From the NCBI GenBank assembly GCA_029553475.1, contig JAKPKV010000137.1, forward strand, positions 133,976 to 167,176: a stretch of 33,201 bases of DNA, in the 5' to 3' direction. Every line of letters starts with the position of its first letter. Within the stretch, counting starts at the first letter, position 1. Under the pieces are notes generated by a model, which was not told the origin of the DNA, searched no databases, and saw only the letters and a program-made list of their open reading frames with translations. The DNA comes from Armatimonadota bacterium (GTDB lineage Bacteria; Armatimonadota; Hebobacteria; CAIYQO01). Below, piece by piece: positions 15,881-30,713 of this stretch. Position numbers and translations under genes: made by a program.

Positions 15881-15909
15881 TTGACATTGCCCCGCGGATT
15901 TTGTACTGT
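15881..15909 (+). promoter_or_regulatory. Promoter of the nuo operon
   Basis: A perfect TTGACA (15881-15886) is followed after 17 bp by TACTGT (15904-15909), a weak -10 with 3 of 6 matches. Transcription would start near 15916, about 42 nt before nuoA. The surrounding AT-rich patch (15850-15912) stands out from the GC-rich flanks. Confidence 0.6.
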
Positions 15910-15957
15910 ATGACGCTGGTAGACACCGTCATCTCCCGCGGAAATATTGAGAGCACC

Positions 15958-16323
15958 ATGACGAATCAGGCTATCTCCATCGCCGTGTTCTTCGGACTCG
16001 GCCTGCTCTTTTGGATGGTGGCGCTCGCGGCGTCGCACCTCGTGCGCCCGCGCCGCCCCTCCGCCGCCAAAGAAGCCACCTACGAGTGCGGCACCGTGCC
16101 CGTCGGCCGCGCCTGGTATCAGGTGCATGTGCGGTATTACATCTACGCGCTGCTGTTCGTGCTCTTCGACGTCGAGGTGGCCTTCCTCTATCCCTGGGCG
16201 GCGATTTTCCGCCGGCTGGACGGCTTCACCCTGTTTCTGCTCATTGACGTGCTCATCTTCCTGCTGATCCTCGTCTTCGGGCTGGTCTACGCCTGGCGGA
16301 AAGGAGCGCTGGAATGGGAGTGA
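15958..16323 (+). CDS. nuoA: NADH-quinone oxidoreductase subunit A
   Basis: The 121-residue length fits NuoA. Three transmembrane helices (about 7-27, 61-82 and 92-113) flank the conserved loop [20 protein letters not shown] (42-61) and [13 protein letters not shown] (69-81). Asp71 and Glu73 belong to the proton-channel entrance next to NuoH, and Cys44 is in the Q-site loop of the family. The ATG at 15958 is chosen because the upstream TTG would add 19 residues that lie over the promoter. It is first in the operon and overlaps nuoB by 10 bp. Confidence 0.97.
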
Positions 16324-16907
16324 CGGACGACCGCATCGCCGGGCTGCCCGTGGAAGTGGGCGTCACCGGCGCGCAGGTGGTGGACGCCTGCGCGAAAGTG
16401 CCGGGCGGCAGCGTGCTGCTCGGCGCGGTGGAAGACCTGCTGAACTGGGCGCGCGAGTCCTCGCAGTGGCCGGTCACCTTCGGCCTCGCCTGCTGCGCGA
16501 TCGAGATGATGGCCACCGGCGCCTCGCATTACGACCTGGACCGCATGGGCATCATCTTCCGCGCCACCCCGCGCCAGTCGGACATCATGATCGTCTCCGG
16601 CACGGTGACGAAGAAGATCGCGCCCATCCTCAAGCGCCTCTACGACCAGATGCCGGACCCGAAATACGTCATCGCCATGGGCAACTGCGCCACCGGCGGC
16701 GGGCCGTATTGCTACGATACCTACAGCGTGGTGAAGGGCGCGGACCGCATCGTGCCGGTGGATATCTACATCCCCGGCTGCCCGCCGCGGCCCGAGCAGC
16801 TCATTGACGCGCTGCTGGAGCTGGGGCGCACCTACCGGCGCGAGCACCCGATCCGCAACGCGCGCACGGCGCCGTTGAAGCCGGCGCAGACCCCAAAGCG
16901 ACGATGA
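16314..16907 (+). CDS. nuoB: NADH-quinone oxidoreductase subunit B
   Basis: The 197-residue peripheral subunit binds cluster N2, the last iron-sulfur centre before quinone. All four ligands are visible: Cys60 and Cys61 ([10 protein letters not shown]), Cys125 (GNCATGGG) and Cys156 (IPGCPPRP). [18 protein letters not shown] and [16 protein letters not shown] are family signatures. AAGGAG lies 7 nt before the ATG and inside nuoA. The basic C-terminal tail ([13 protein letters not shown]) is a little longer than usual. The stop overlaps the ATG of the GDSL gene by 4 bp. Confidence 0.98.
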
Positions 16908-17629
16908 ACAGCGAGAATAATAGCGTGACGATGACCCGCGACCGGGTGCTGAAACCCGGCATGTTTGACGACGACGCGGCGGCGAATACCCGGCGCGTCG
17001 AGTTCGATTACGGCAATGAATCGCTGATGTTGACCGACGTCCGGCCGGATGTCCTCTTCATCGGGGACAGCATCACCCATCTCTGGGAGCTGCAGGCCTA
17101 TTTCGGCGGCACGGGGCGCATCCTCGTCAACCGGGGCATCGGCGGCGACATCAGCGCGCACGTGCGCCGGCGCTTCGCGGCGGACGCGCTGCAACTGCGG
17201 CCGCACGCGATCGTGCTGAAGATCGGCACCAATGACCTGGGCTGGGAGCCGGCGGCGCTGAACGACGCGCTCTCCGACGTGGTGTGCGACAATATCGCCG
17301 CCATGACGCGGGAGGCGCGCGCGGCGGACATCCGCATGATGGTCTGCTCCCTCTTGCCGGTGTGGGGGCCGAGCTGGCTGAGCGACGCGGACGCCGCCGT
17401 CTTCGCCCCGCGCAAGAACGCGCAGATCGCGGCGATCAACGCCCGCCTGCGCGCGATGGCCGCCGCCGAAGGGGCGATCTACGTGGATTACCACGCCGAG
17501 ATGGCGGATGCCGACGGCCTGCTCATCCGCGAGCTGGCGGACGATGGCGTACATCCGCACCACGCCGGGTATGCCCTGATGGCCCGCGTGCTGCGCCGGG
17601 CGCTGGCCGATGACGGGATGGTGCTCTGA
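16904..17629 (+). CDS. SGNH/GDSL hydrolase inserted between nuoB and nuoC
   Basis: The 241-residue protein shows all SGNH blocks: FIGDSIT with Ser56, NRGIGGD with Gly80, GTND with Asn110, and [10 protein letters not shown] with Asp214 and His217. It has no signal peptide, so it should be a cytoplasmic esterase or acylhydrolase. The closest pattern is the platelet-activating-factor acetylhydrolase-like group. It overlaps nuoB by ATGA, and nuoC begins 1 bp after its stop, so it is fully embedded in the operon and translationally coupled. It has no known role in complex I. The substrate cannot be told; co-regulation is certain only as far as the shared transcript. Confidence 0.92.
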
Positions 17630-17630
17630 C

Positions 17631-18119
17631 ATGACCTACGAACAATTCATCACGACGCACGCCGACCTGCTGGCCGCCGCCGAGCAGCGCGACGGCCTGT
17701 GGGCGCTCACCGCCGCGCCGGCGCGGGCCCACGCGCTGCTGGCCGCGCTGCGCCCGCGCTTCGATTACCCGGAGGACCTGACCTGCGTGGACGAGGGCGA
17801 GGCGCTGCGTGTCATCTATCGCGTGGCGCGCACCGCGGACGGCGCGGTGGCGCACGTCTTCGTGCGCCTGCCGCGCGACGCCGCCCACCTGCCCACCGCC
17901 AGCGATCTGTGGAAAGGGTTCGACTGGCAGGAGCGCGAGGCCTACGACATGTTCGGCGTGATCTTCGACGGCCATCCCGACCTGCGCCGCATCCTCACCT
18001 GGGAGGGTTTTCAGGGCCACCCGCTGCGCAAGGATTTCGTGGTGGACGACGACGATCTGAGCTGGCAGATTCCGGAGCAGACGGACTGCGAGATCGTGGA
18101 TCTGTTGATGCGGGAGTAG
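17631..18119 (+). CDS. nuoC: NADH-quinone oxidoreductase subunit C
   Basis: The 162-residue protein is the 30-kDa subunit of the Q module. The diagnostic C-terminal stretch is present: [25 protein letters not shown] followed by [11 protein letters not shown]. It is a separate protein, not fused to NuoD as in E. coli. ATG 17631 lies 1 bp after the stop of the GDSL gene; the upstream ATG (17610) would sit inside that gene and is unlikely. The nucleotidyltransferase gene starts 2 bp after the stop. Confidence 0.97.
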
Positions 18120-18121
18120 CG

Positions 18122-18409
18122 ATGACGCTGGATGAGCTGGCAACCCGCCGCGAAGAGATTTTAGCCATTGCCGCGCACCACGGCGCGCGCAATGTGCGGG
18201 TGTTCGGTTCGGTCGCGCGCGGCGAAGCCGACGCCGGCAGTGATATTGACTTTCTCGTCGAATTTGAACCGGGACGCAGCCTGTTCGACCTGGGAAGTAT
18301 GCAGGTGGAGCTGGAGGCATTGCTGGGCCGGCCCGTAGATGTGGTGACTGACCGGGGATTGCGGGACCGCATCCGGGCGCGCGTGCTGGCGGAAGCGCGG
18401 CCATTATGA
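18122..18409 (+). CDS. mntA: MNT-type minimal nucleotidyltransferase antitoxin
   Basis: The 95-residue protein has the nucleotidyltransferase signature G29-S30 (FGSVARGE) with the metal-binding pair Asp41 and Asp43 (SDIDFLV) and a third acidic residue at Asp73 (PVDVVT). MNT proteins of this type pair with HEPN toxins and inactivate them by adding AMP to a tyrosine of the toxin. The gene starts 2 bp after nuoC and overlaps the HEPN gene by ATGA. Length and motif agree with the family. The pair is in the same transcript as nuo genes, so a separate promoter is not apparent. Confidence 0.9.
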   Translation: MTLDELATRREEILAIAAHHGARNVRVFGSVARGEADAGSDIDFLVEFEPGRSLFDLGSMQVELEALLGRPVDVVTDRGLRDRIRARVLAEARPL

Positions 18410-18735
18410 GAGACGATCGCGAGCGTTTGCGGGATATGCTGGAAGCGCTTGAGCGGATAGAAAAATATACCGCACTTGGGCAGCACGCGTTCGAACAGGA
18501 CGAATTGATACAGACATGGATAGTGCATCACCTTGAGATCGTGGGGGAGGCGATGCGTGGATTGAGTGCCGCGTTTCGCGAACGGCATCCTGAATTGCCG
18601 TGGTCGCCGGTCATCGGCATGAGAAACGTGCTCATCCATGGTTACTTCCAGATTGATCTGGCATTGGTCTGGCGAACCGCCGCGACGGATGCGCCGATGC
18701 TCAAACAAAAGATTGCGGCCCTGCTGGCCGAGTGA
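18406..18735 (+). CDS. hepT: HEPN (HepT-like, DUF86) RNase toxin
   Basis: The 109-residue all-helical protein has the HepT active-site motif R73-N74-V-L-I-H78-G-Y80 (R-x4-H-x-Y) that defines this metal-independent RNase family. Tyr80 is the residue AMPylated by the MNT partner in characterised pairs. The ATG overlaps the mntA stop, an arrangement typical of two-gene modules. It lies between nuoC and nuoD, 48-57 bp before the nuoD start, so a respiratory operon carries a toxin-antitoxin module. No key residue is missing, so it may be active. Confidence 0.92.
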   Translation: MRDDRERLRDMLEALERIEKYTALGQHAFEQDELIQTWIVHHLEIVGEAMRGLSAAFRERHPELPWSPVIGMRNVLIHGYFQIDLALVWRTAATDAPMLKQKIAALLAE

Positions 18736-18792
18736 GACGACGACGCCGCGTTATCGCGAGGGGCAAACCGCCCTATCGCTGAGGTGAAAACC

Positions 18793-19959
18793 TTGCCGTT
18801 ACGTGACTTTCGACAACCTGACCTGGAGGCGCCCGAGGTGATCCTGCCGGCGATGCCGGAGGATTACGGGACGACCGTCGTCAGCATGGGCCCGCAGCAC
18901 CCGTCCACCCACGGCGTGCTCCGCCTGATGCTGAAGATGGACGGCGAGACCGTGCTGCGGCTGGTGCCGGTGATCGGCTACCTGCATCGCGGCACGGAAA
19001 AGCTCGCCGAGAGCCGCACCTATACCATGATCATCCCCTACACCGACCGGCTGGACTACCTCTCGGCGATGTATATGAACCTGGGGTACGTGCTGGCGGT
19101 GGAGCGGCTGCTCGGACTGGAAGTGCCGGAGCGCGCGCGCTGGCTGCGCACCGCGGTGGCCGAGCTGCAGCGCCTCGCCAGCCACCTCCTCTGGCTGGGC
19201 TCCTTCGCGCTGGACCTGGCGGCGACCACCGTCTTCCTGTATACTTTCCGCGAGCGCGAAATCATTCTCGATCTATTCGAGACGCTCTGCGGCGCGCGGC
19301 TCACCTACAACTACATGCGCATCGGCGGCGTGATGGCCGACGTGCCGGCGGGCTGGCTCGGGCGCGCCGCCGACTACCTGGACGTGCAGGAGAGGATGCT
19401 GGTGGAGTACGAAAACCTGCTCACCGGCAACCCCATCTTCCGCGCCCGCACCGAGGGCATCGGGGTGATCTCCGGCGCGGACGCCGTGAATTTCGGCCTC
19501 TCCGGCCCCACCCTGCGCGGCTCCGGCGTGCCCTACGACATCCGCAAGCTCGAGCCGTACGACGCCTACGGCGAGGTGGAGTTCGCCGTCGCCACCCGCG
19601 AGGCCGGCGACTGCTTCGCCCGCTACGAGGTGCGCCTGGACGAGATGCGCGAGTCCATCAAGATCGTGCGCCAGTGCCTGGAGAAGCTGGACGGCCTGGC
19701 CGGCGAGGTGCAGGGGCGCGCGCCGCGCGTCATCAAGCCGGCCGCCGGCGAGGCGTATGCCCGCGTGGAAGCGCCGCGCGGCCTGTTCGGCGTCTTTTCC
19801 GTCTCCGACGGCACCGCCAATCCCGTGCGCGTGCGCTTCCGCTCGCCGAGTTTCGCCAACCTCTGCGCGCTGGATCACATGTGCCGCGGGGTGAAGCTGG
19901 CCGACGTGGTGGCCGTGCTGGGCAGCATAGACATCGTGCTGGGGGAGATTGACCGCTAA
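18793..19959 (+). CDS. nuoD: NADH-quinone oxidoreductase subunit D
   Basis: The 388-residue protein is the 49-kDa Q-module subunit, related to the large subunit of [NiFe] hydrogenases. Signatures include MGPQHPSTHGVLRLMLKMDGE, the quinone-pocket PSTHG loop, and IGYLHRGTEKLAE. The TYNYMRIGGV and SPSFANLCAL segments and the C-terminal LGSIDIVLGEIDR also fit. Start is uncertain: GTG at 18784 is part of GAGGTG, which looks like the ribosome-binding site for TTG at 18793 (about 6 nt downstream). I prefer the TTG; the difference is three residues. The stop overlaps the nuoH start (TAATG). Confidence 0.97.
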   Translation: MPLRDFRQPDLEAPEVILPAMPEDYGTTVVSMGPQHPSTHGVLRLMLKMDGETVLRLVPVIGYLHRGTEKLAESRTYTMIIPYTDRLDYLSAMYMNLGYVLAVERLLGLEVPERARWLRTAVAELQRLASHLLWLGSFALDLAATTVFLYTFREREIILDLFETLCGARLTYNYMRIGGVMADVPAGWLGRAADYLDVQERMLVEYENLLTGNPIFRARTEGIGVISGADAVNFGLSGPTLRGSGVPYDIRKLEPYDAYGEVEFAVATREAGDCFARYEVRLDEMRESIKIVRQCLEKLDGLAGEVQGRAPRVIKPAAGEAYARVEAPRGLFGVFSVSDGTANPVRVRFRSPSFANLCALDHMCRGVKLADVVAVLGSIDIVLGEIDR

Positions 19960-21191
19960 TGGATACCTGGCTGAATAATCTGTGGCACGGCGTCACCCTC
20001 GGCGGCAACGAAGTCATGCGCTCGCTGATGGTCGCGCTGCTCTCGCTGGTCATCATGCTGGTGGTGGTGCTGGTGGTCATCTGGCTGGAGCGCAAAGTCT
20101 CCGCCGACATCCAGAACCGCATCGGCCCCATCCGCACCGGCGGCGTGCTCGGCTTCGTGCTGCAGAGCCTGGCGGACGCCCTCAAGCTGCTGATGAAGGA
20201 AGACCTGCGCCCGGCCGGCGCCGACCGCTGGCCCTTCTACATCGCCCCCTATCTCGTCTTCCTGCCGGCGTTCATGGCCTACATGATCCTCCCCTTCTCC
20301 GCCACGTGGATTCCGCAGGACGTGAAGATCGGCATCCTGTATTACTGCGCGGTGAGCGCCGTGCCGGTGCTCGGCATCGCCATCGCCGGCTGGGCGTCGA
20401 ACAACAAGTGGTCGCTGCTCGGCGCGCTCCGCTCCGCGGCGCAACTCGTCAGCTACGAGATCCCGCTGGGGCTGGCCATCCTCGCCGCCGTGCTGCTGCA
20501 CGGCACGCTGGAGACGGGGGCCATCGTGCGCAGCCAGTGGCTCAATCCCTGGCTCACGCTGCTCACCCTGCCCGCGCTGCTCATCTTCCTCACCGCCGGC
20601 CTCGCCGAGGTGAGCCGCACGCCCTTCGACCTGCCGGAAGCGGAGTCCGAGCTGGTGTCCGGCTTCAACACCGAGTATTCCGGGATGCGCTTCGCCACCT
20701 TCTTCCTGGCGGAGTTCTCCGCGTCCTTTTTCATCTCCGCGCTGGCGGTGACGCTGTTTCTCGGCGGCTGGAGCCTGTGGGGGCTGGATCTCGCCTGGGC
20801 GCGGCATGTGTTCCACTGGGATACCGCCGCGTGGTTCGTGGACGGCGCGCTGGTGCCCGCCGCCATTCCCTTCGTGATGAAGGCGTTCTGGTTCGCCGTC
20901 TTCATGGTGAAGACCTTCGTGGTGCTGTGGATTCTCATGTGGGTGAAGTGGACGCTGCCGCGCCTGCGCATTGACCAGGTGCTCAATTTCGGCTGGAAGG
21001 CGCTGCTGCCGGCAGCGCTGGCGAACCTGCTCCTCGTGAGCTTGGTCGGCGCGTGGCTGCAGCCGGCGGGCGGCGATACGCCGGGGCGGCCCGCGGTGGT
21101 GAACGCCATCGTGCTGCCCGGCGTCGGGCCGCCGGGCGCCGCCGACGGCGACGCGGCGGGCAGTCCGGCATCCGCGCCGGGCCGCCCATGA
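19959..21191 (+). CDS. nuoH: NADH-quinone oxidoreductase subunit H
   Basis: The 410-residue membrane subunit forms the quinone chamber between the Q module and the antiporter arm. Family landmarks are ERKVSADIQNRIGP (44-57) and ADALKLLMKED (72-82). The Q-site helix SYEIPLGLAIL and the acidic loop RTPFDLPEAESELVSGFNTEYSGMRF (220-245) also match. About eight helices fit the family. The last 45 residues (GGDTPGRPAVV onwards) form a Gly/Pro/Ala-rich tail beyond the usual end. The ATG shares one base with the nuoD stop; the ATGA at its end would begin an alternative start of the next gene. Confidence 0.97.
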   Translation: MDTWLNNLWHGVTLGGNEVMRSLMVALLSLVIMLVVVLVVIWLERKVSADIQNRIGPIRTGGVLGFVLQSLADALKLLMKEDLRPAGADRWPFYIAPYLVFLPAFMAYMILPFSATWIPQDVKIGILYYCAVSAVPVLGIAIAGWASNNKWSLLGALRSAAQLVSYEIPLGLAILAAVLLHGTLETGAIVRSQWLNPWLTLLTLPALLIFLTAGLAEVSRTPFDLPEAESELVSGFNTEYSGMRFATFFLAEFSASFFISALAVTLFLGGWSLWGLDLAWARHVFHWDTAAWFVDGALVPAAIPFVMKAFWFAVFMVKTFVVLWILMWVKWTLPRLRIDQVLNFGWKALLPAALANLLLVSLVGAWLQPAGGDTPGRPAVVNAIVLPGVGPPGAADGDAAGSPASAPGRP

Positions 21192-21202: not shown

Positions 21203-21700
21203 ATGAAGCGGCGCGTATGGCAGCTCGCGCTCGTGGCGCTCGCACTGGGCGGCATCTGGTTTTGGATGGTCTACCCGGCGCTGGAGCAGCACGCGCGGCA
21301 GGCGCCAATGACGGACGCCCTCGCCGCCGCGCAGCGGGGCGACGTCTACGGGGTGCGCGTGTCCTTCACCGATGACGCGCACGTGCAGGCGGGCGCGACG
21401 CGGCTGCCCATCGGCATCGCGCTGGAGGTGGCGCGGCCGCTCATCGAGTCCCGCGCCCGGGGCGCGCGCCTGCGCTTCGACGGCTACCGCGACCCGGTGG
21501 TGCGCGGCAACACGATGGACGCGGAATTTTACGTCTGGGTCTACGTGGAGCGCCCGGACGCGCCCGACCGCTGGGTGCCGCTGCACAAGAGCGGCCGCGT
21601 GGTGCTGGAGAAAACGGGCATCCTGCGCTGGAAGATCACGGAGCTGCGCTCGGACGACGCCGATTTCGGCGCCGCCCTCGGCGGCGAGGGGCAGGAGTGA
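21203..21700 (+). CDS. Single-pass membrane-anchored protein of unknown family
   Basis: I do not recognise this 165-residue protein. One N-terminal helix (WQLALVALALGGIWFWMVYPAL) follows MKRR, so the remainder should lie outside the cytoplasm. The soluble part is beta-rich: VYGVRVSFTDDAHVQAG, LRFDGYRDPVVRGNTMDAEFYVWVYVER and GRVVLEKTGILRWKITELR. GGGAGAG precedes ATG 21203 at a good distance. An ATG at 21188 overlaps the nuoH stop (ATGA) and would add five residues. Being co-transcribed with nuoH and nuoI, it could be an accessory or assembly factor, but that is only context. The esterase-like gene starts 10 bp downstream. Confidence 0.7.
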   Translation: MKRRVWQLALVALALGGIWFWMVYPALEQHARQAPMTDALAAAQRGDVYGVRVSFTDDAHVQAGATRLPIGIALEVARPLIESRARGARLRFDGYRDPVVRGNTMDAEFYVWVYVERPDAPDRWVPLHKSGRVVLEKTGILRWKITELRSDDADFGAALGGEGQE

Positions 21701-21710
21701 GGGGACGAGA

Positions 21711-23096
21711 GTGACGGTGGAAACGCCAGTACTGGTGGGCGCGACGATCACGCGGGGGCCGCGGCCCTGGCAGGTGCTGCAGCGCGAGGCGGACGGCACG
21801 GCGCCGCTGGCGCTGGCAGGCCGCTGGGCCGGCGCGGACGGCAGCGTGGTCGAGGTGCGCGCCGCGCGCGAGTATGACCACGCCGCCGCCGCCGGCTGCG
21901 ACTGGCAGCCCGCCGAGATGCTGCCGGGCAACGCCTGGCGCGCCACCCTGCGCGTGCCCACCGGCGGCCTGTACAAGGCGGAGACGCGGCTGCGCGCGCC
22001 CGGCGTCGAGTGGCGCAGCACCGGCGATAAGATCTGGCACCTGGCGGTGGGCGACCTGTGGGTGATCGCCGGGCAGAGCAACGCCGTCGGCTACGGCCAC
22101 GGCGCGGTGGTAGATCCGCCGATGCTGGGCGTATCCGTCTTCGGCGGCGATGAGGTGTGGCGGCTGGCCACCCACCCGATTTTCGACCCGACGGAGACGC
22201 GGCATCCGGCGAACCGCGACGGCGGCTGGGTGGATGTCTCGCCGTGGCTGGCCTTCGGCACGGGGATTTTCACGGGCGCCGGCGTGCCGGTGGGGCTGAT
22301 TCCCGCCGCGCTGGGCGGCTCCCCGCTGTCGGCGTGGGATCCGGGCAATCCGGAGGGCGCGTATCTGTATGAGAACATGCTCAGCCTGATTGACGCCGCC
22401 GGCGGGCGGGTGGCGGGCATGGCCTGGTATCAGGGCGAGTCGGACGCGAACGCCGAGCTCGCCGCCACCTACCTGGCGCGTTTCACCCGCTTCGTGGCGG
22501 CGTTTCGCGCGCGCTGCGGCGCGGGTCTGCCCGTGCTCACCGCGCAGTTGAACCGGTACTTCGACAGCGCGGACCCCGCGCAGGGGCGGGCGTGGTCGGC
22601 CATCCGCGAGGCGCAGCGCCGGGCGGCGCGGGCCATCCCCGGCGTCGCGGCGGTGCCCACGCTGGACCTGGGGCTGTCGGACGCCATCCACACCAGCGCG
22701 GTGGGCAACGTGGTGCTGGGCGAGCGCTTCGCGCGCGTCGCGCTGGGCATGGTCTACGGACAGGCGCTGAACTGGCGTCCGGCGGACGCCCGTGACGCGC
22801 GCTTCCTGGATGACGGGCGCGCGGAGGTGGCGATCACCTTCGATCACGTGCGCGATCACCTGGTGCTGCTCACCCTCTTCGCGGAGGAGTTCACCGTGGA
22901 GGACGCCGTCGGCGCGGTGCCGGTGGCGAAAGCCTGGGTGGAAGAGCCGAACGTGGTGCGGCTGACGCTGGGCCGCGCGGCCGGGGCGGGCGCCGTCTGC
23001 CACCTCTCGGCCGGCTGCAACCCGCCGAGCACGCTGCGCGACGCGCTGCAGCGGCCGGCGCTGGCCTACTATGGGCTGGAGATACTGGCGTCGTAA
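21711..23096 (+). CDS. Sialate O-acetylesterase-like SGNH hydrolase
   Basis: The 461-residue protein begins at GTG 21711, with AGGGGA about 6 nt upstream. A beta-rich N-terminal domain precedes the SASA-type hydrolase core. IAGQSNAVG contains the Ser123 nucleophile, GGSPLSAWD the oxyanion glycine, WYQGESDA lies at 239-246, and DAIHTSAVG carries Asp324 and His327. A C-terminal beta domain completes the usual architecture of acetylesterases acting on sialic acid or related sugars. No signal peptide is obvious, which is unusual for this family. It is the second SGNH hydrolase in the nuo operon and not similar in length or layout to the first. Its natural substrate is unknown. Confidence 0.9.
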   Translation: MTVETPVLVGATITRGPRPWQVLQREADGTAPLALAGRWAGADGSVVEVRAAREYDHAAAAGCDWQPAEMLPGNAWRATLRVPTGGLYKAETRLRAPGVEWRSTGDKIWHLAVGDLWVIAGQSNAVGYGHGAVVDPPMLGVSVFGGDEVWRLATHPIFDPTETRHPANRDGGWVDVSPWLAFGTGIFTGAGVPVGLIPAALGGSPLSAWDPGNPEGAYLYENMLSLIDAAGGRVAGMAWYQGESDANAELAATYLARFTRFVAAFRARCGAGLPVLTAQLNRYFDSADPAQGRAWSAIREAQRRAARAIPGVAAVPTLDLGLSDAIHTSAVGNVVLGERFARVALGMVYGQALNWRPADARDARFLDDGRAEVAITFDHVRDHLVLLTLFAEEFTVEDAVGAVPVAKAWVEEPNVVRLTLGRAAGAGAVCHLSAGCNPPSTLRDALQRPALAYYGLEILAS

Positions 23097-23118
23097 GGCG
23101 CCGGTGGGAAATGACATC

Positions 23119-23679
23119 ATGGTCACCTTGATTAATAACGTGGTTTCGGGCATCCGCGCCATCCTGGTCGGCATGCGCGTGACGTGGAGAAACAATTTTC
23201 GCAAGCCGGTCACCATCCAGTACGGCTACGCGCCGCGCTGGGGGAAGACGGAGACGCGGGCCATGTCACCGCGCTACCGCGGGCGGTTTACGCTCATCCG
23301 CGAGCCGGAGACGGGCGAGCTGCGCTGCACCGGCTGCGGCCTCTGCGCGCAGGCCTGTCCGGGCCGCTGCATCACCGTGACGGGCGAGAGCCGCAAGGTG
23401 ACGTCCTATCAGCTTGACCTGGAAAAGTGCCTCTTCTGCGGGCTGTGCGTGGAAGCGTGCCCCTTCGAGGCGCTGGGCATGATGCAGGAGACGCATCCGC
23501 TGCAGTTCAAAACGCGCGAGGCGCTGCACCTGACGATGGAGACGCTGGCGCAGCCGGACGGCGCGGAGATGCCGGGCGTGCTGCCCTCCACCGTGGGCGG
23601 CGACCTGCGCCCGGGCAAGAAGCCCTACCAGCCGAAGACGAAGAAGGCGGCCGATGGGGCGGCGGGGCAGACCGCCTGA
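23119..23679 (+). CDS. nuoI: NADH-quinone oxidoreductase subunit I
   Basis: The 186-residue protein holds two 4Fe-4S ferredoxin motifs, CTGCGLCAQACPGRC and CLFCGLCVEACPFEAL, the ligands of clusters N6a and N6b that carry electrons toward NuoB. An N-terminal amphipathic helix (IRAILVGMRVTWRNNF) and KPVTIQYGYAP fit the family. The C-terminal tail (GKKPYQPKTKKAADG) is lysine-rich. ATG 23119 is favoured; GTG 23104 would add five residues. It starts 22 bp after the esterase-like gene. Confidence 0.97.
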   Translation: MVTLINNVVSGIRAILVGMRVTWRNNFRKPVTIQYGYAPRWGKTETRAMSPRYRGRFTLIREPETGELRCTGCGLCAQACPGRCITVTGESRKVTSYQLDLEKCLFCGLCVEACPFEALGMMQETHPLQFKTREALHLTMETLAQPDGAEMPGVLPSTVGGDLRPGKKPYQPKTKKAADGAAGQTA

Positions 23680-23703: not shown

Positions 23704-24309
23704 ATGATCGAACTCTCGGCCTACAATATCATCCTACTGCTGCTGGCGGCGGTCACGCTGCTGGGCGCGGTCCGGGTCATCGCCACGCGCAGCGTCATCC
23801 ACGCGGCGTTCTGGCTCTTTCCGGTCTTCGCGGGCATCGCCGGCTTCTACCTGCTGTTGGGGGCGCAGTTCCTCGCCGCCATCCAGGTGCTCATCTACAT
23901 CGGCGCCATTCTCGTGCTCATCATCTTCGCGGTGACGCTCACCCGCAACGCCATGGACAGCGACGACGCGCCGGCGAATCGCTTCGGCGTGCCGGTCTTC
24001 CTCGCCGCGATCATGCTGCTCGCCGCGGTCATCGGCGCGGCGGGGCACACGCGCTGGCCCGCCGCCTTCGCGACGATTGACCATATCGCCCTCGCCCCCG
24101 GCCTGGAGGTGACCGGCGTGCCCGCGCTGGGCGTCACGCTGCTGCAGCACTACCTGCTGCCCTTTGAAATCGCCTCCGTGCTGCTCCTCGCCGGCATGAT
24201 CGGCGCCATCGTGCTGGCGCGCCGGGAACGGCCATCGGCGGACGACGACGCCCCGGCGGACGCGGCGACCGCGGCGGACGCGCCCCAGCGCGAGAAGGTG
24301 GGGGTGTAA
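23704..24309 (+). CDS. nuoJ: NADH-quinone oxidoreductase subunit J
   Basis: The 201-residue membrane subunit has five helices. The family block FLAAIQVLIYIGAILVLIIFAVTLTR around residues 58-83 includes the flexible third helix next to NuoH and NuoK. A second conserved segment, LLPFEIASVLLLAGMIGAIVLARR, closes the membrane part. The last 30 residues are Asp/Ala-rich and low in complexity. It is separated from nuoK by only 3 bp. Confidence 0.96.
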   Translation: MIELSAYNIILLLLAAVTLLGAVRVIATRSVIHAAFWLFPVFAGIAGFYLLLGAQFLAAIQVLIYIGAILVLIIFAVTLTRNAMDSDDAPANRFGVPVFLAAIMLLAAVIGAAGHTRWPAAFATIDHIALAPGLEVTGVPALGVTLLQHYLLPFEIASVLLLAGMIGAIVLARRERPSADDDAPADAATAADAPQREKVGV

Positions 24310-24312
24310 GCC

Positions 24313-24621
24313 ATGTTCTCAATTACCGGATTACTGACGATCAGCGGCATCCTCTTCGTGGCGGGCGCGGCCGCGCTCATCACCCGGCGGAACGCCGTGG
24401 CCGCGCTGATGGGCGTGGAGCTCATGCTCAACGCCGCCAATCTGAACTTCGTCGCCGGCTGGCGCTACTTCTGGCCGGAGCGCCTGGACGCGCACGTCGC
24501 GGTGCTGCTGGTCATCACCGTCGCCGCCGCCGAAGCCGCCGTGGGCCTGGCGATCATCCTGAACCTGTATCGCAAGTTCGGCACGGTGGACCTGGAGCAG
24601 ATTCGGCTGATGCGGGGGTAG
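24313..24621 (+). CDS. nuoK: NADH-quinone oxidoreductase subunit K
   Basis: At 102 residues it is the usual length. Three helices carry the two membrane glutamates needed for proton transfer: Glu36 in MGVELMLNAANLNFV and Glu74 in ITVAAAEAAVGLAIIL, at the standard positions. The neighbourhood (after nuoJ, before nuoL) is canonical. After the stop, a repeat-rich 130-bp gap interrupts the otherwise tight packing. Confidence 0.97.
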   Translation: MFSITGLLTISGILFVAGAAALITRRNAVAALMGVELMLNAANLNFVAGWRYFWPERLDAHVAVLLVITVAAAEAAVGLAIILNLYRKFGTVDLEQIRLMRG

Positions 24622-24751: not shown

Positions 24752-26854
24752 ATGACCATATTTCTGACATTCGCGCAACAACAGAGCTGGCTCATCGTGG
24801 CCCTGCCGGTGGCGGCGTTCCTCTTCATCGGGTTCGTCATCATCATCGCCGGCCGGGGGCAGGAGCTCGCCAAGCGCCTGGCGCCGTGGGTGCTCATCGT
24901 CTGTCTCGCCGCCGCGCTGGCGCTCGCGCTGGGCGCGCTCGCCGGCGGGCTGGCGCGCGGGGCGGGCGGCGAGGTCAGCCACGCGCCGGAGTGGTTCCAA
25001 CTGGCCCCGGCGGCCGGGGAGCACGGCGCGGCCGCGCCTGGCGCCGCCCTCCGCTTCGTCCCCACCGAGCGAATCGCCGACTGGCTGCCGCTGCCCGCCA
25101 GCATGGGCGAGTCGTTCGCGCGCACGCTGAAAATCGGCACGCTGCTCGACCCGCTCAGCGCGGTGATGCTGGTGGTGGTGCTGCTCGTCAGCCTGCTGGT
25201 GCAGATCTATTCGCTGAGCTACATCAAGCGCGACGAGCACCCGCGCTTTTACCTGTACATGGCGCTCTTCACCACCGCCATGCTCGGGCTGGTGATCGCC
25301 TCGTCGCTGCTGCAGCTCTTCATCTTCTGGGAGCTGGTGGGCGTCTGTTCCTACCTGCTCATCGGTTTTTGGTATCCAAAACCGGAGGCGGCGAAGGCGG
25401 CCATCAAGGCCTTCGTGGTCACCCGCTTCGGCGATCTCGGCCTGCTGTTCGCGGTGATCTTCCTCTGGATGGGCTACGGTGATCTCACCTTCAGCCACCT
25501 CGCCGCGCAGATCGGCCCGGCGATGGCCGCGCCCGCCGCGCTGCCCGTCTCGCTCACCGTGGTGGCGATCCTGCTCTTCATCGGGGCGTGCGGCAAGTCC
25601 GCGCAGTTCCCGCTGCATATCTGGCTGCCCGACGCGATGGAAGGCCCCACCTCGGTCTCCGCGTTGATTCACGCGGCGACGATGGTGGCCGCCGGCATCT
25701 ACCTGGTGGCGCGCATGTTCTTCCTCTTCGAGGCCGCGCCGATGGCCCTCATCGTCGTCGCGACGGTGGGCGCCTTCACCGCCCTCTTCGCCGCCTCCAT
25801 CGGGCTGGCGCAGACGGACATGAAGAAGGTGATGGCCTATTCCACCGTCAGCCAGCTCGGCTACATGATGATGGGCCTGGGGCTGGCGGCGCCGGCGGCG
25901 GCGTTCTTCCACCTCACCACCCACGCCTTCTTCAAGGCGCTGCTCTTCCTCACCGCCGGCGCGGTCATCCACGCCGCGCACACGCAGAATATCTGGGAGA
26001 TGGGCGGCCTCTTCAAGAAGATGAAGGTGACGGCCATCACCTGTCTCATCGGCGGGCTGGCGCTGGCCGGCATCTTCCCGCTGGCGGGCTTCTTCTCCAA
26101 GGATAAACTGCTGGAATCCGCGCTGGCGGCGGCGATGGGGCTGGGGCCGGAGACGATCAGCGCCGGCCTGGGCGGGCTCATCCTCCTCATGGCGCTGGCC
26201 ACCGTGCTGATGACCGCCTTCTATACCGCGCGCATGTGGACGCTGGTCTTCCTCGGCGAGCCGCGCAGCGACGGGGCGAAGCACGCGCACGAAGCGCCGC
26301 GCTCCATGCAGCTCTCGCTGCTGGTGCTGGCCGCGCTCACGCTGGTGGCCGGCTTCCTGCTGGTGCCGCGGCTCACCGCGCTCATCGCGCCCGCGCATCA
26401 CGCCGCGCTGGCGCCGTGGATGATCTGGACGCTCACCGGCGGCGCGTCGCTGCTGGCCGTGGTCGGCATCCTCTGGGGCTACGCCGCCTACCGGCGCGCG
26501 CCGGCCACTGAGCCGCTCGCGAAACTCGGCTGGGCCTACACCGGCCTGGTGAAGCTGTGGTGGGTGGATGCCTTCTTCACCTGGCTCGCGCATCGCGTGG
26601 TGCTGGTGCTCGGCCGGCGGGCGCGCACGTTCGATAAGGGCGTGGTGGACGGCCTCTTCGTGGACGGCACCGCCTGGCTCACCGGCCGCCTGGGCGTGGT
26701 GATGCGCCGGGTGTCCGCCGGCCCGCTGCCCGGGCAGTTGCAATACGCCGCGCTGGTGATCTTCCTGCTCGCCGCGCTGGTGATCCTGGGGATGTCCCTC
26801 ACCGGCCTCCTTCCCCTGCTCGTGAAGACCGCCCAGATAGGGGGGATGCGCTGA
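24752..26854 (+). CDS. nuoL: NADH-quinone oxidoreductase subunit L
   Basis: The 700-residue antiporter-like subunit sits at the end of the membrane arm. Conserved sites are Glu194 in FWELVGVCSYLL (E. coli Glu144), Lys282 in GKSAQFPLHIWLPDAMEGPTSVSALIH (Lys229), and the TM8-TM12 block TDMKKVMAYSTVSQLGYMMMG with HAFFKALLFLTAGAVIH. The lateral helix HL and the final helix are present. It is longer than typical: about 50 extra residues lie between helix 2 and helix 3 (about 66-128), probably in the periplasm. AGGAA precedes the ATG. The stop overlaps nuoM (TGATG). Confidence 0.97.
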   Translation: MTIFLTFAQQQSWLIVALPVAAFLFIGFVIIIAGRGQELAKRLAPWVLIVCLAAALALALGALAGGLARGAGGEVSHAPEWFQLAPAAGEHGAAAPGAALRFVPTERIADWLPLPASMGESFARTLKIGTLLDPLSAVMLVVVLLVSLLVQIYSLSYIKRDEHPRFYLYMALFTTAMLGLVIASSLLQLFIFWELVGVCSYLLIGFWYPKPEAAKAAIKAFVVTRFGDLGLLFAVIFLWMGYGDLTFSHLAAQIGPAMAAPAALPVSLTVVAILLFIGACGKSAQFPLHIWLPDAMEGPTSVSALIHAATMVAAGIYLVARMFFLFEAAPMALIVVATVGAFTALFAASIGLAQTDMKKVMAYSTVSQLGYMMMGLGLAAPAAAFFHLTTHAFFKALLFLTAGAVIHAAHTQNIWEMGGLFKKMKVTAITCLIGGLALAGIFPLAGFFSKDKLLESALAAAMGLGPETISAGLGGLILLMALATVLMTAFYTARMWTLVFLGEPRSDGAKHAHEAPRSMQLSLLVLAALTLVAGFLLVPRLTALIAPAHHAALAPWMIWTLTGGASLLAVVGILWGYAAYRRAPATEPLAKLGWAYTGLVKLWWVDAFFTWLAHRVVLVLGRRARTFDKGVVDGLFVDGTAWLTGRLGVVMRRVSAGPLPGQLQYAALVIFLLAALVILGMSLTGLLPLLVKTAQIGGMR

Positions 26855-28416
26855 TGTCACTGCATGATCTGCTCACGCAATACGCCGCGCTGGCCTGGCT
26901 GGTGCTGGTGCCGTTTTCCGCGGCGCTCGTCATCATGCTCATCCCGCGCGGCTGGCACCTCACCTACCGCCTGGTGGCGGCCGTCTCCACCGGCTTCACG
27001 CTGATCCTGGCCGCGCTGCTGGCGTGGGACTACCTGGCGCTGATTCAGGCCGAGAAGATTCCCGGGACCTTCCAGGGGATCTGGCACTACGCCTTCGCGC
27101 CGCAGGCGATGTCCTTCATGGGCGGCAAGATCACCTTCCACCTCGCCACCGACGGCGCGGGGGTGGCGATGTGCCTGCTCACCGCCCTCACCATCTTCAC
27201 CGGGGTCTTCGCCTCGTGGACGCTGCAAGAGCGCGCGAAGGAATACTACGCGCTGCTGCTGCTGCTGGTGGCGGGCGTCTTCGGCGTCTTCGTCACCGTA
27301 GACCTCTTCTTCTTCTTCCTCTTCTACGAGATCGCCGTGCTGCCGATGTACCTGCTCATCGGCATCTGGGGGACGGGGCAGAAGGAATACTCCGCGATGA
27401 AGCTGACGCTGATGCTGCTGATGGGGTCCGCGCTCATCATCGTCGGCTTCCTCGCCCTCTTCGTCGCCGCGGACAAGGCGACGATGGGCGGCGGCACCTT
27501 CAACCTGCTGCAGTTGGCGGCGGTGGCGAAAGAGGCTTTCGCGGACGCGCAGTTCCAGCGCTGGGTCTTCCTCGCCTTCTACCTCGGCTTCGGCGTGCTG
27601 GCGGGCATCTTCCCCATCCACACCTGGTCGCCCGACGGCCACGCGTCCGCGCCCACCGCCACCTCCATGCTGCACGCCGGCGTGCTGATGAAGCTCGGCG
27701 GCTTCGGCCTGCTGCGCGTCGCGCTGCCGCTGCTGCCGGAGGGCCTGGCGGACTGGCGCTGGCTCATCGTCATCGTCGCCGCGTGGAATATCGTCTACGG
27801 CGCCTTCTCCGCCATGGGCCAGAAGGATCTCAAATACGTCGTCGCCTACTCCTCGGTGAGCCACCTGGGGATGGTGATGATGGGGCTGGCGGCGGGCACG
27901 CTCACCTCCATCAACGGCGCGGTCTTTCAGATGTTCGCCCACGGCGTGATGACCGCCCTCTTCTTCGCGCTGGTCGGGCTCGTCTACGGCAAGGCGCATA
28001 CCCGCGACATTGACGCCATGGGCGGCCTCGCCCGCGTGGCGCCGGGCCTCGCCGTCGCCTTCATGATCGGCGGCCTCTCGTCGGTGGGCCTGCCCGGCAC
28101 CGGCGGCTTCGTGGCGGAGTTCCTGGTCTTCATGGGCACCTTCCAGGCCAATGTCAGTCACCCGGGGATGTGGATCGTCGCGGCCTTCGCCTGTCTCGGC
28201 ATCGTCATCACCTCCATCTACGTGCTGCGCCTGCTGAAGCGCGTCTTCTTCGGCGCCCTGCCCCCAAAATACGCGCACATGGAAGACGCGAAAACCACTG
28301 AGTGGGTGGCGCTGGCGATGAACGCCGCGGTCATCCTCGCCGTCGGCATCTGGCCCAAACCCATCATCGAGCTCATCACCTCAGCGGTGATGCCGCTGTT
28401 GACGATTATGCAATAG
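26854..28416 (+). CDS. nuoM: NADH-quinone oxidoreductase subunit M
   Basis: The 520-residue antiporter-like subunit has Glu159 in FYEIAVLPMYLLIG (E. coli Glu144), Lys280 in VLMKLGGFGLLR and Glu422 in GFVAEFLVFMG. The helix-7 segment reads GFGVLAGIFPIHTWSPDGH. Aligned by eye to the usual AFAVKMPxxPLHxWLPDAH, the functional lysine (E. coli Lys234) is replaced by Leu249. This is a real substitution, not a frameshift, because both sides match. The gene is unbroken and follows nuoL with a 1-bp overlap. A GxxExxY gene separates it from nuoN. Confidence 0.97.
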   Translation: MSLHDLLTQYAALAWLVLVPFSAALVIMLIPRGWHLTYRLVAAVSTGFTLILAALLAWDYLALIQAEKIPGTFQGIWHYAFAPQAMSFMGGKITFHLATDGAGVAMCLLTALTIFTGVFASWTLQERAKEYYALLLLLVAGVFGVFVTVDLFFFFLFYEIAVLPMYLLIGIWGTGQKEYSAMKLTLMLLMGSALIIVGFLALFVAADKATMGGGTFNLLQLAAVAKEAFADAQFQRWVFLAFYLGFGVLAGIFPIHTWSPDGHASAPTATSMLHAGVLMKLGGFGLLRVALPLLPEGLADWRWLIVIVAAWNIVYGAFSAMGQKDLKYVVAYSSVSHLGMVMMGLAAGTLTSINGAVFQMFAHGVMTALFFALVGLVYGKAHTRDIDAMGGLARVAPGLAVAFMIGGLSSVGLPGTGGFVAEFLVFMGTFQANVSHPGMWIVAAFACLGIVITSIYVLRLLKRVFFGALPPKYAHMEDAKTTEWVALAMNAAVILAVGIWPKPIIELITSAVMPLLTIMQ

Positions 28417-28421
28417 GAGAG

Positions 28422-28987
28422 GGAACCGCAGATTTACGCAGATTGAAAAGAAAACAGGAGGTAGCTCCCTATGTCGGAAACAGCTGCGCGCGATGGAGAG
28501 AAACGCGATCCGCAGACGTATGCAATCATCGGCGCGGCCATGGAGGTGCACCGGGTGCTGGGACCCGGATTTCTGGAAGCCGTCTATCAGGAAGCGCTGG
28601 CGGTGGAGCTGGATGAGCAGTTGATCCCGTTCAAACGGGAAGTGGCACTGTCGGTCACCTATAAATGGGAAACGCTGGCCTGCGGCTATCGCGCGGATTT
28701 CGTCTGTTATGACGAAGTGCTCGTGGAACTCAAAGCCATTGAACGGCTGACGGAAATCGAGATGGCGCAAGTCATCAACTACCTGAAAGCCACCGGGCTG
28801 CGGCGCGCGCTGCTGTTGAACTTCGCCGCGCCGAGCCTGGAATGCAAACGCATCGTGCTCTCGGATCACCAGTCTGCATCACCGGTGGACAGGATGCCTG
28901 GGATGCATATACCGAAGCGGAACCGCCGGTGAGGCAGAGAAAAGACTTTTCCTTTTCATCTGCGTAAATCTGCGTAATCTGCGGTTC
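28422..28987 (+). mobile_element. Candidate inserted GxxExxY unit with terminal inverted repeats
   Basis: The GxxExxY gene is bounded by GGAACCGCAGATT-type repeats in inverted orientation. The left arm (28422-28450) and right arm (28951-28987) agree end to end, apart from one extra 9-bp unit (ACGCAGATT) in the right arm and one T. Both arms are built from TACGCAGATT units. The unit is 566 bp, sits between the nuoM stop and the nuoN ribosome-binding site, and breaks the usual tight nuoM-nuoN junction. I see no clear target duplication; ATAGGAGAGG (left) and ATACAGAGG (right) are only weakly alike. No transposase is present. The claim that it moves is an inference from structure. Confidence 0.55.
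28471..28932 (+). CDS. GxxExxY family protein
   Basis: The 153-residue protein carries the family motif G33-F-L-E36-A-V-Y39 and a PD-(D/E)xK-like core: Y73-R-A-D76-F, then E86-L-K88, and Q100-VINYLKATG. That core suggests a nuclease-like fold, although no activity has been shown for the family to my knowledge. The core ends at RIVL (130). The last 23 residues are not typical of the family and run into the repeat-rich flank. AGGAGGT lies 8 nt before the ATG, the strongest ribosome-binding site around, so it is set up for its own translation. GxxExxY genes are often dispersed in many copies in bacterial genomes. It is flanked by inverted repeats. Confidence 0.88.
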   Translation: MSETAARDGEKRDPQTYAIIGAAMEVHRVLGPGFLEAVYQEALAVELDEQLIPFKREVALSVTYKWETLACGYRADFVCYDEVLVELKAIERLTEIEMAQVINYLKATGLRRALLLNFAAPSLECKRIVLSDHQSASPVDRMPGMHIPKRNRR

Positions 28988-29003: not shown

Positions 29004-30713
29004 GTGAACGTTGAATATCTCGCTATCGCGAAACTGTTTCTGCCGGAGATCGTGCTCACGGTGGGCGCGCTGCTGCTGCTGGGGATAGACCTCTGCCTGG
29101 GCAAGCGCGACACCCGCCGGGCGCTGGTCCTTCTCGGCGCCGTCATCAGCCTGGCGGCGGCGTGCGTCGCCCTGCTGCAGTGGGACTGGCGCCCCGCCGA
29201 GGCGCAGTACGTCAGACAGGCCGCCGTGACCTCTGCCGTGCAGCGCATGGCGCCCGCCGTGGGGCGGGACGCGCTCACCCATGCCGCGCGCATCTCCGAG
29301 CGCGACGCGCGCGCGGTGACCACCGCCTATAAGGCCGCCCGCCACGACAGCCTCGTCGAGAGCGCGGCCACCCCGCCGGCCGACGGCGCGCCGGTGATGG
29401 GGATCGCGCCGTATGACGCCGGCCTCTCCAGTCCCAGCTTCAGCGCCTGGTGGCTTTTCACGGCGGACAATTTCGCGCTGATTTTCAAGGCGATCTTCGC
29501 GCTGGCGCTGGCGCTGGCGCTGCTGCTCTCCACGCGCTTCCCGGTGGCGCGCTATCGCGGTGAGTTCGCCGCCCTGCTCATGTTCGCCGCCGTCGGCCTG
29601 ATGGTGATGGTGGGCAGCCTGGACCTGGTGGGCATCTTCCTCGGCCTGGAGCTCGCCTCGCTCTGCTGCTACGCCCTCGCCGCCTGGCACAAGCAGGACG
29701 CGCGCTCGGCGGAAGCGGGCACCAAGTACCTGCTGCTCGGTTCGCTGGCCTCGGCGATCTTCATCTACGGCGCCAGCCTCTTCTTCGTGGAGTATGGCTC
29801 CACCCACCTGCACGTGCTCGCGCACGGGGCCGCGCAGTCGCCGCTCACCCTCGTCGCGCTGCTCATGGTGCTGGTCAGCTTCCTCTTCAAGGTGGCGGGG
29901 GCGCCCTTCCACCTCTGGGCGCCGGACGTCTATCAGGGCGCGCCCACCGCCATGGTCGCCTTCCTCTCCACCGCCGGCAAGGCCGCCGGCTTCGCCGTGC
30001 TCGTGCGCGTGCTGTCCGCCCACGGCTTCCAGGCGTTCAGCGAAAAATGGCTGCTGCTCTTCATCGGGGTGGCCGCGCTCAGCATCCTCATCGGGAATCT
30101 GGTCGCCATCCACCAAAACAACGTGAAACGGCTGCTGGCCTACTCCGGCGTCGCCCAGGCGGGCTACGTCCTCATCGGGCTGGTGGCGATGGCCGACCCC
30201 GCCGGCGGCACGCTGCTGAACGAGGCGCTGCCCCTCACCGCCGTCATCTTCTACCTCGCGGCCTACATGGTGATGAACATCGGCGCCTTCGCCGTCGTCG
30301 GCATCGTCGGGCGCGAGAGCGGCGGCGAGGAGCTGTCCGCCTTCGCCGGCCTGCGCGCGCGCGCGCCGGTGCTGGCCTTCGCCTTCACGCTGCTGCTGCT
30401 CTCGCTGGGCGGCATCCCGCTGCTCTCCGGCTTCGTCGGCAAGTGGTACCTCTTCCTCGCCGGCGTCTATCAGGGGCAGTACCTGCTGGTGCTCATCGGC
30501 ACCACCATGAGCGTGGTCTCCATGTACTACTATCTGCTGGTCATCAAGCAGATGTATATCCTGCCCGCCGCCGACGGCGCGCAGCCCATCCGCGTCGGCG
30601 CCCTCGCCGCCGCCGGCCTCGCCGCCATCACCCTCGTCACCGTCGCCATCGGCATCTACCCCGGCCCGCTCTACACCCTCGCCCAGGCCGCCGCGAAATC
30701 CCTCATGCCATAG
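29004..30713 (+). CDS. nuoN: NADH-quinone oxidoreductase subunit N
   Basis: The protein starts at GTG 29004, with AGAGG 6 nt upstream, just outside the right repeat of the GxxExxY unit. At 569 residues it is about 80 longer than E. coli NuoN. The antiporter core is intact: Glu216 in FLGLELASLCCYALA (E. coli Glu133), Lys296 in FLFKVAGAPFHLWAPDVYQGAPT (Lys217), and KRLLAYSGVAQAGYVLIG. The extra residues (about 62-148) lie between helix 2 and helix 3, are Ala/Arg-rich and probably periplasmic. It is last in the operon; a hairpin terminator follows. Confidence 0.97.
   Translation: MNVEYLAIAKLFLPEIVLTVGALLLLGIDLCLGKRDTRRALVLLGAVISLAAACVALLQWDWRPAEAQYVRQAAVTSAVQRMAPAVGRDALTHAARISERDARAVTTAYKAARHDSLVESAATPPADGAPVMGIAPYDAGLSSPSFSAWWLFTADNFALIFKAIFALALALALLLSTRFPVARYRGEFAALLMFAAVGLMVMVGSLDLVGIFLGLELASLCCYALAAWHKQDARSAEAGTKYLLLGSLASAIFIYGASLFFVEYGSTHLHVLAHGAAQSPLTLVALLMVLVSFLFKVAGAPFHLWAPDVYQGAPTAMVAFLSTAGKAAGFAVLVRVLSAHGFQAFSEKWLLLFIGVAALSILIGNLVAIHQNNVKRLLAYSGVAQAGYVLIGLVAMADPAGGTLLNEALPLTAVIFYLAAYMVMNIGAFAVVGIVGRESGGEELSAFAGLRARAPVLAFAFTLLLLSLGGIPLLSGFVGKWYLFLAGVYQGQYLLVLIGTTMSVVSMYYYLLVIKQMYILPAADGAQPIRVGALAAAGLAAITLVTVAIGIYPGPLYTLAQAAAKSLMP

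Follow-up and report, generated by a model that had tools for sequence, protein, structure and literature searches.

According to electrostatic-wave models of complex I, a pair formed by a glutamate and the lysine of transmembrane helix 7 (TM7) opens and closes in each antiporter module (PMC9271201, PMC9802314; these papers, like those cited below, are quoted from excerpts of their text). The locus described here raises the question of what becomes of the NuoM subunit when that lysine is missing. The sequence analysed, hereafter the window, is a stretch of 33,201 nucleotides (nt) from Armatimonadota bacterium GCA_029553475.1 (contig JAKPKV010000137.1, positions 133,976–167,176, forward strand). 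Its nuoM gene (26854–28416; all nuo genes and nuoM codons given here lie on the + strand) encodes 520 amino acids without an internal stop, and the product scored 441 bits against TIGR01972 (cut-off 263.8). An earlier note, relying on a by-eye alignment, had placed Leu249 (codon CTG, 27598–27600) where E. coli has Lys234, and this was borne out by alignments to solved NuoM chains. In the five alignments printed among 84 matched sequences (8qby_M, 7p61_M, 3rko_M, 6hum_D and 7wff_D), Leu249 stood opposite a lysine, and the stretch from Leu249 to Lys280 was gapless. E. coli numbering equals that of the window NuoM minus a constant 15 (E159=E144, L249=K234, K280=K265, E422=E407). The ion-pair glutamate Glu159 (27328–27330), the central lysine Lys280 (27691–27693) and the terminal glutamate Glu422 (28117–28119) are all retained, as the note had it. 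The structural check agreed. An AlphaFold2 model of the protein (predicted local distance difference test score 92.6, predicted template modelling score 0.93) was matched by Foldseek to the antiporter fold of E. coli 3rko_C with template modelling scores of 0.88/0.91; modelled helix 7a spans residues 232–249, ending at Leu249, and helix 8 spans residues 268–293.

A sequencing error is an unlikely source of Leu249, because the nearest relative (L036, an Armatimonadetes metagenome-assembled genome [MAG] whose NuoM is 94% identical) has Leu at the same site, as do all 80 related loci, which were the top 80 among 253 stretches coding for a relative. Among the rows sharing this Leu, pairwise identity had a median of 47%, as taken from a sample of 3000 pairs. 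The window NuoM truly lacks the helix-7 lysine of the Glu–Lys ion pair.

The loss does not stand alone; three positions differ jointly. For comparison, 176 rows were aligned. Similarity to the window protein and a sequence pattern served to select them, so their proportions are not frequencies. Classed by the residue at position 234 (E. coli numbering, used for all alignment columns), 127 rows had Leu, one Ile and 48 Lys, the last class including two distant antiporter-like rows (L150 and L209) that may not be NuoM. Among the 48 Lys-type rows, positions 234, 244 and 259 read Lys, Leu (in 45/48) and Leu, Val or Ile. The same positions read Leu (one Ile), Ser and His in 121 Lys-less rows, and Leu, Ala and Leu in the remaining seven. 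In the window these are Leu249, Ser259 (27628–27630), which replaces on helix 7b the gate leucine corresponding to E. coli L244, and His274 (27673–27675), located on helix 8 six residues ahead of the central Lys280 and a candidate substitute for Lys234. The loss of the gate leucine was absent from the earlier note, whose suggestion that the proton path through this subunit is changed is probably correct.

The seven Leu/Ala/Leu rows, which have no His259, carried a lysine at position 150 in helix 5 (7/7, against 0/169 other rows; Met165 in the window, 27346–27348). Each of the 176 rows therefore had exactly one of K234 (48 rows), H259 (121) and K150 (7). The seven comprise six second NuoM copies (NuoM2) of Acidobacteriota and one row from the phylum of the window (L018). 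A pattern built on Lys150 matched 14 of 396 Acidobacteriota genomes; 12 of the matches were NuoM2 (six of them already aligned), and the other two (L259 and L260) were discarded as other proteins. All 12 had the Leu/Ala/Leu state, lacking both K234 and His259, and adjoined a Lys-type first copy (NuoM1). Of 291 Armatimonadota genomes, the pattern found only G029 (L018/L174), whose NuoM is His-less with Lys150 and whose contig ends inside the gene.

Phylogeny separated the two classes. A quick tree (104 rows plus four outgroup rows) joined 64 Lys-less rows in one branch and 38 Lys-type rows in another (Shimodaira–Hasegawa-like approximate likelihood ratio test support 99 and 97, respectively), with L150 and L209 as long branches near NuoN. 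A careful tree was then built from 60 of the rows, some of them picked at random, with the outgroup, six long rows and the two trait columns left out; it gave the split 100/100 support. The Leu/Ala/Leu type was nested within the His type in both trees. The idea that the His-less rows are remnants of an intermediate state was rejected on this ground, and it is likely that Lys234 gave way to His259 and that His259 in turn gave way to Lys150. A basic residue would thus have been lost for a second time, and a new one gained for a second time.

These observations suggest that the NuoM of this branch still conducts protons, with His274 and Glu159 replacing the Glu–Lys switch and Ser259 easing the wetting of the channel; we give this reading a probability of roughly 0.6. 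A proton from the cytoplasmic side would pass via Lys280, the bridging histidines His337 (27862–27864; E. coli H322) and His363 (27940–27942; H348), and Glu422. His274 and Glu159 would assume the charge switch that Lys234 and Glu144 supply elsewhere, in a manner likened to the helix-8 'histidine switch' proposed for NuoL and MrpA, while Ser259 would make the uptake channel easier to wet. This proposal draws on the presence in every row of one of K234, H259 and K150 beside a kept acidic residue at position 144 (Glu or Asp in 176/176), and on the conservation of the remaining path: Lys at position 265 in 175/176 rows and, among the 128 Lys-less rows, H322 in 128, H348 in 127 and E407 in 128. The partner subunits of Lys-less operons likewise retain the key residues tested. 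In NuoN, E133, K217, K247 and K395 were present in 69/69 rows; in NuoL, K305, T312, K342 and K399 were present in 62/62, and H254 and K229 in 61/62, the other row having a gap. Among the key axis residues tested, the changes are confined to NuoM.

Some Lys-less rows vary at these sites. In one (L187, genome G367) the helix-8 lysine is shifted by one residue (HGGVLKATG, K264/A265); three His-bearing rows (L104, L112 and L149) have an adjacent pair of helix-8 lysines (VLKK); and four (L101, L109, L113 and L115, with Desulfococcus, Deltaproteobacteria and Desulfobacteraceae in their titles) have Asp for Glu at position 144.

The earlier note had proposed that a lysine elsewhere might compensate. 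Something elsewhere does seem to compensate, but in the window it is a histidine, His274, and not a lysine; the helix-5 Lys150 is confined to the nested sub-branch. Screening of the columns that carry a charge in 80% or more of the Lys-less rows (93 Lys-less versus 36 Lys-type rows) gave His259 and Arg438 (E. coli numbering) as the sole new basic residues of the branch, so the idea of compensation by a lysine at another site of the window protein was rejected. Compensation in NuoN was likewise set aside, no charge-changing column being found by the chosen cut-offs, as was compensation in NuoL, where there were two such columns (position 550 and a column in which E. coli has no residue). Other sites also separate the two types of NuoM: in the Lys-less type R313 (Arg/Lys) becomes Tyr or Phe, position 124 goes from mostly Glu to mostly Val, and position 438 becomes mostly Arg.

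Several points weigh against the proposed conduction by way of His274. The compensation pattern rests on two changes in the tree only, and the 176 rows (128 of them Lys-less) are not independent. For Paracoccus denitrificans, E141 and K232 of the ion pair are described as essential, as is the terminal E405, and the change L242A is reported to abolish catalysis essentially (PMC9802314); with a constant offset of 2, E141, K232, E405 and L242 would correspond to E. coli 144, 234, 407 and 244. Changes at both sites that differ in the branch, K232 and L242, thus stop catalysis there, and E. coli M_K234 mutations are said to cause loss of function (PMC3046159). From the other side, E. coli NuoN K217A is reported to pump normally with electron transfer roughly halved (PMC13073174), and NuoL K229A to act like the unmutated form when tested by complementation in B. 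subtilis (PMC4938563), so that the TM7 lysine may matter less than assumed. The comparison with NuoL cuts both ways. His254 on helix 8 of NuoL is described as swinging between a lysine and the Lys–Glu pair, and as hydrogen-bonded to Ser150 when it points to that pair (PMC13358369); columns 150, 254/259 and 229/234 should therefore lie together, which favours the proposal. On the other side, the alignment places NuoL His254 in a gap next to His274 (matching the helix-8 ends by eye makes the two coincide exactly), so that the position of His274 relative to the helix-8 bulge of the histidine switch is ambiguous by one residue, and Ser150 of NuoL, the TM5 residue that binds the histidine, is Met165 in the window NuoM.

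Some of these points would fit a merely structural role for the histidine, in which it packs helix 8 after the lysine was lost, water and Glu159 suffice, and the Glu–Lys pair is dispensable in this background. The normal pumping of NuoN K217A agrees with this, as does the report that Paracoccus NuoM stays partly active when its helix-8 Lys is replaced, which is attributed to water networks (PMC9802314), and the His-less sub-branch indeed has no helix-8 His. Against this role, that sub-branch carries Lys150 in all seven aligned rows. The 12 Acidobacteriota NuoM found by pattern, also without His, were selected by a pattern that itself demands Lys150, so their count shows only the absence of His. 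We regard a purely structural histidine as rather improbable.

The Lys-less type is widespread. Ser244 and His259 accompanied the missing lysine in 80/80 of the related loci, whose titles name about 11 bacterial groups: Armatimonadetes, Rokubacteria, Vicinamibacterales, Chloroflexi, Elusimicrobia, Myxococcales and other Deltaproteobacteria, Desulfobacteraceae, Omnitrophota, Lindowbacteria, Bacteroidales and Bacillota, among others (group names were taken from record titles, and those of MAGs can be wrong). Phylum surveys with a sequence pattern for the Lys-less helix-7b loop matched 12 of 199 Acidobacteriota genomes (12 true Lys-less NuoM), 22 of 101 from Chloroflexota (21 true) and nine of 99 from Desulfobacterota (eight true). 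One Chloroflexota match (L198, genome G406) and one from Desulfobacterota (L209) were Lys-type and were not counted; L200 and L201 were extra places in a genome with a true one. In the phylum of the window, 21 of 121 genomes matched the window protein at an E-value of 1e-100 or better, and all 21 were Lys-less with His. For relatives in this phylum, 14 of 61 were raw pattern matches whose loci were not retrieved, and one of these (G047) looks unlike NuoM. From these counts, the Lys-less type is a minority in every phylum sampled, yet widespread. As to whether this is a common functional variant, which the earlier note had named as grounds for abandoning its claim, the variant is common, and conservation suggests that it is functional.

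Some operons combine both types. Of the 80 loci, 11 from Chloroflexi (identical rows merged), including Roseiflexus, Oscillochloris and Herpetosiphonaceae, have two nuoM genes, coding for a Lys-type NuoM followed by a Lys-less one with His. In six retrieved Acidobacteriota operons, a Lys-type NuoM is followed by a Lys-less one with Lys150.

The content of the operons bears on a different explanation, namely that the Lys-less NuoM is a passive relay that hands the charge from NuoN to NuoL and pumps no proton of its own. Such a complex would move fewer protons for each pair of electrons and might thereby be suited to a small redox span. The genes for NuoE, NuoF and NuoG (EFG) were surveyed by blastp in 56 stretches, of which the 34 with both nuoD and nuoH were taken as informative. 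E, F or G genes were present in 1/16 Lys-less stretches with a single NuoM, 0/6 with two NuoM, and 8/12 Lys-type stretches, these 12 including E. coli and the second operon of the window genome (single-NuoM Lys-less versus Lys-type, Fisher p 0.0012, not corrected for relatedness). Most informative operons of the branch thus lack NuoEFG and may have a different electron donor, and two residues that are essential in Paracoccus are replaced in the branch; both facts would suit a relay. The link between Lys-less NuoM and a lack of NuoEFG is a tendency only, with one Lys-less stretch (L223) having EFG and 4/12 Lys-type stretches lacking it. Those four speak against the relay, and for the same reason EFG loss was rejected as the cause of the lysine loss. 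Moreover, E144, K265, H322, H348 and E407 are nearly invariant, and a new basic residue arose in both changes. We therefore consider a passive relay unlikely.

The window operon itself contains 11 complex I subunit genes, all open frames: nuoA (15901–16323; start codon not settled), nuoB (16314–16907), nuoC (17610–18119; Complex1_30kDa), nuoD (18784–19959), nuoH (19959–21191), nuoI (23071–23679; named from its 4Fe-4S domains and its place in the operon), nuoJ (23704–24309; Oxidored_q3), nuoK (24313–24621), nuoL (24752–26854), nuoM and nuoN (29004–30713). No nuoE, nuoF or nuoG was found within the window. The single nuoM, with no tandem partner, lies between nuoL and nuoN, which belong to the same complex, and is separated from nuoN by an open reading frame (ORF) of 153 amino acids. 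Another contig of the same genome (C119) carries a second complex I (A, B, CD, and E to N) with a Lys-type NuoM, and this, together with the other genes interspersed among the nuo genes of the window, might indicate that the window complex is degenerate or unused. With all 11 subunits in open frames, a 94% identical NuoM in L036 and the key sites kept, we find this very improbable.

Among the interspersed genes, one for a GDSL lipase (16904–17629) lies between nuoB and nuoC, and one for a SASA-type carbohydrate esterase (21372–23096) between nuoH and nuoI. Between nuoC and nuoD there are genes for a nucleotidyltransferase and a HepT-like partner (18131–18409 and 18406–18735), a pairing characteristic of MNT-HEPN toxin-antitoxin systems. 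At 28427–28974, between nuoM and nuoN, a PDDEXK_3 ORF, which we take to be GxxExxY-like, is flanked by 28-nt inverted repeats that are 89% complementary. In L036 a PDDEXK_3 ORF at the same place is broken by an in-frame stop, and in another relative (L037) none was seen at the matching place.

More broadly, the NuoM switch of complex I may place its mobile positive charge in three natural, interchangeable ways: by a helix-7 Lys, a helix-8 His or a helix-5 Lys. The Glu–Lys(TM7) salt bridge of current pumping models would then be one solution among several, and complexes with two NuoM would join two different solutions in one enzyme. We put this generalization forward tentatively. A natural branch without TM7 lysine and gate leucine, and with another basic residue each time, offers alternatives to compare with the Glu–Lys models; it is a natural test of the pump mechanism, and it defines a three-residue swap for E. 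coli. No description of a NuoM branch lacking the TM7 lysine was found in the literature searched, seen in excerpts; Chadwick 2018 lay outside the search and could mention these residues.

Compared with known systems, the window protein resembles NuoM/ND4/Nqo13 of E. coli, P. denitrificans and Thermus thermophilus, with which it shares the fold, the Glu of TM5, the Lys of TM8, the two bridging His, the Glu of TM12 and the gene's place between nuoL and nuoN. It differs from canonical NuoM in lacking the TM7 Lys, in carrying Ser where the Leu-His-Trp triad has its gate Leu, in its added TM8 His, and in Tyr for R313. Like the subunits for which the histidine switch was proposed, NuoL and MrpA, it has a helix-8 His near the ion-pair region; its helix-8 His and Lys occur together, as in MrpA according to an excerpt of PMC7419157 (MrpA was not part of the alignment). 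NuoL has a helix-8 His and, unlike the window NuoM, keeps the TM7 Lys. NuoN and Lys-type NuoM have no helix-8 His. In NuoN the gate position is also occupied by residues other than Leu (Val, Ala, Thr or Ser in 20/20 sampled rows; Ala in the window NuoN), but its TM7 Lys is kept. Another close system is the '2M' complex I of Chloroflexi, attributed to Chadwick 2018 in PMC7117926 and PMC9040806. Its NuoM2 falls in the same branch as the window NuoM and has the same Leu/Ser/His state, but the 2M complex adds a Lys-type NuoM1, whereas the window operon has the NuoM2-like type alone.

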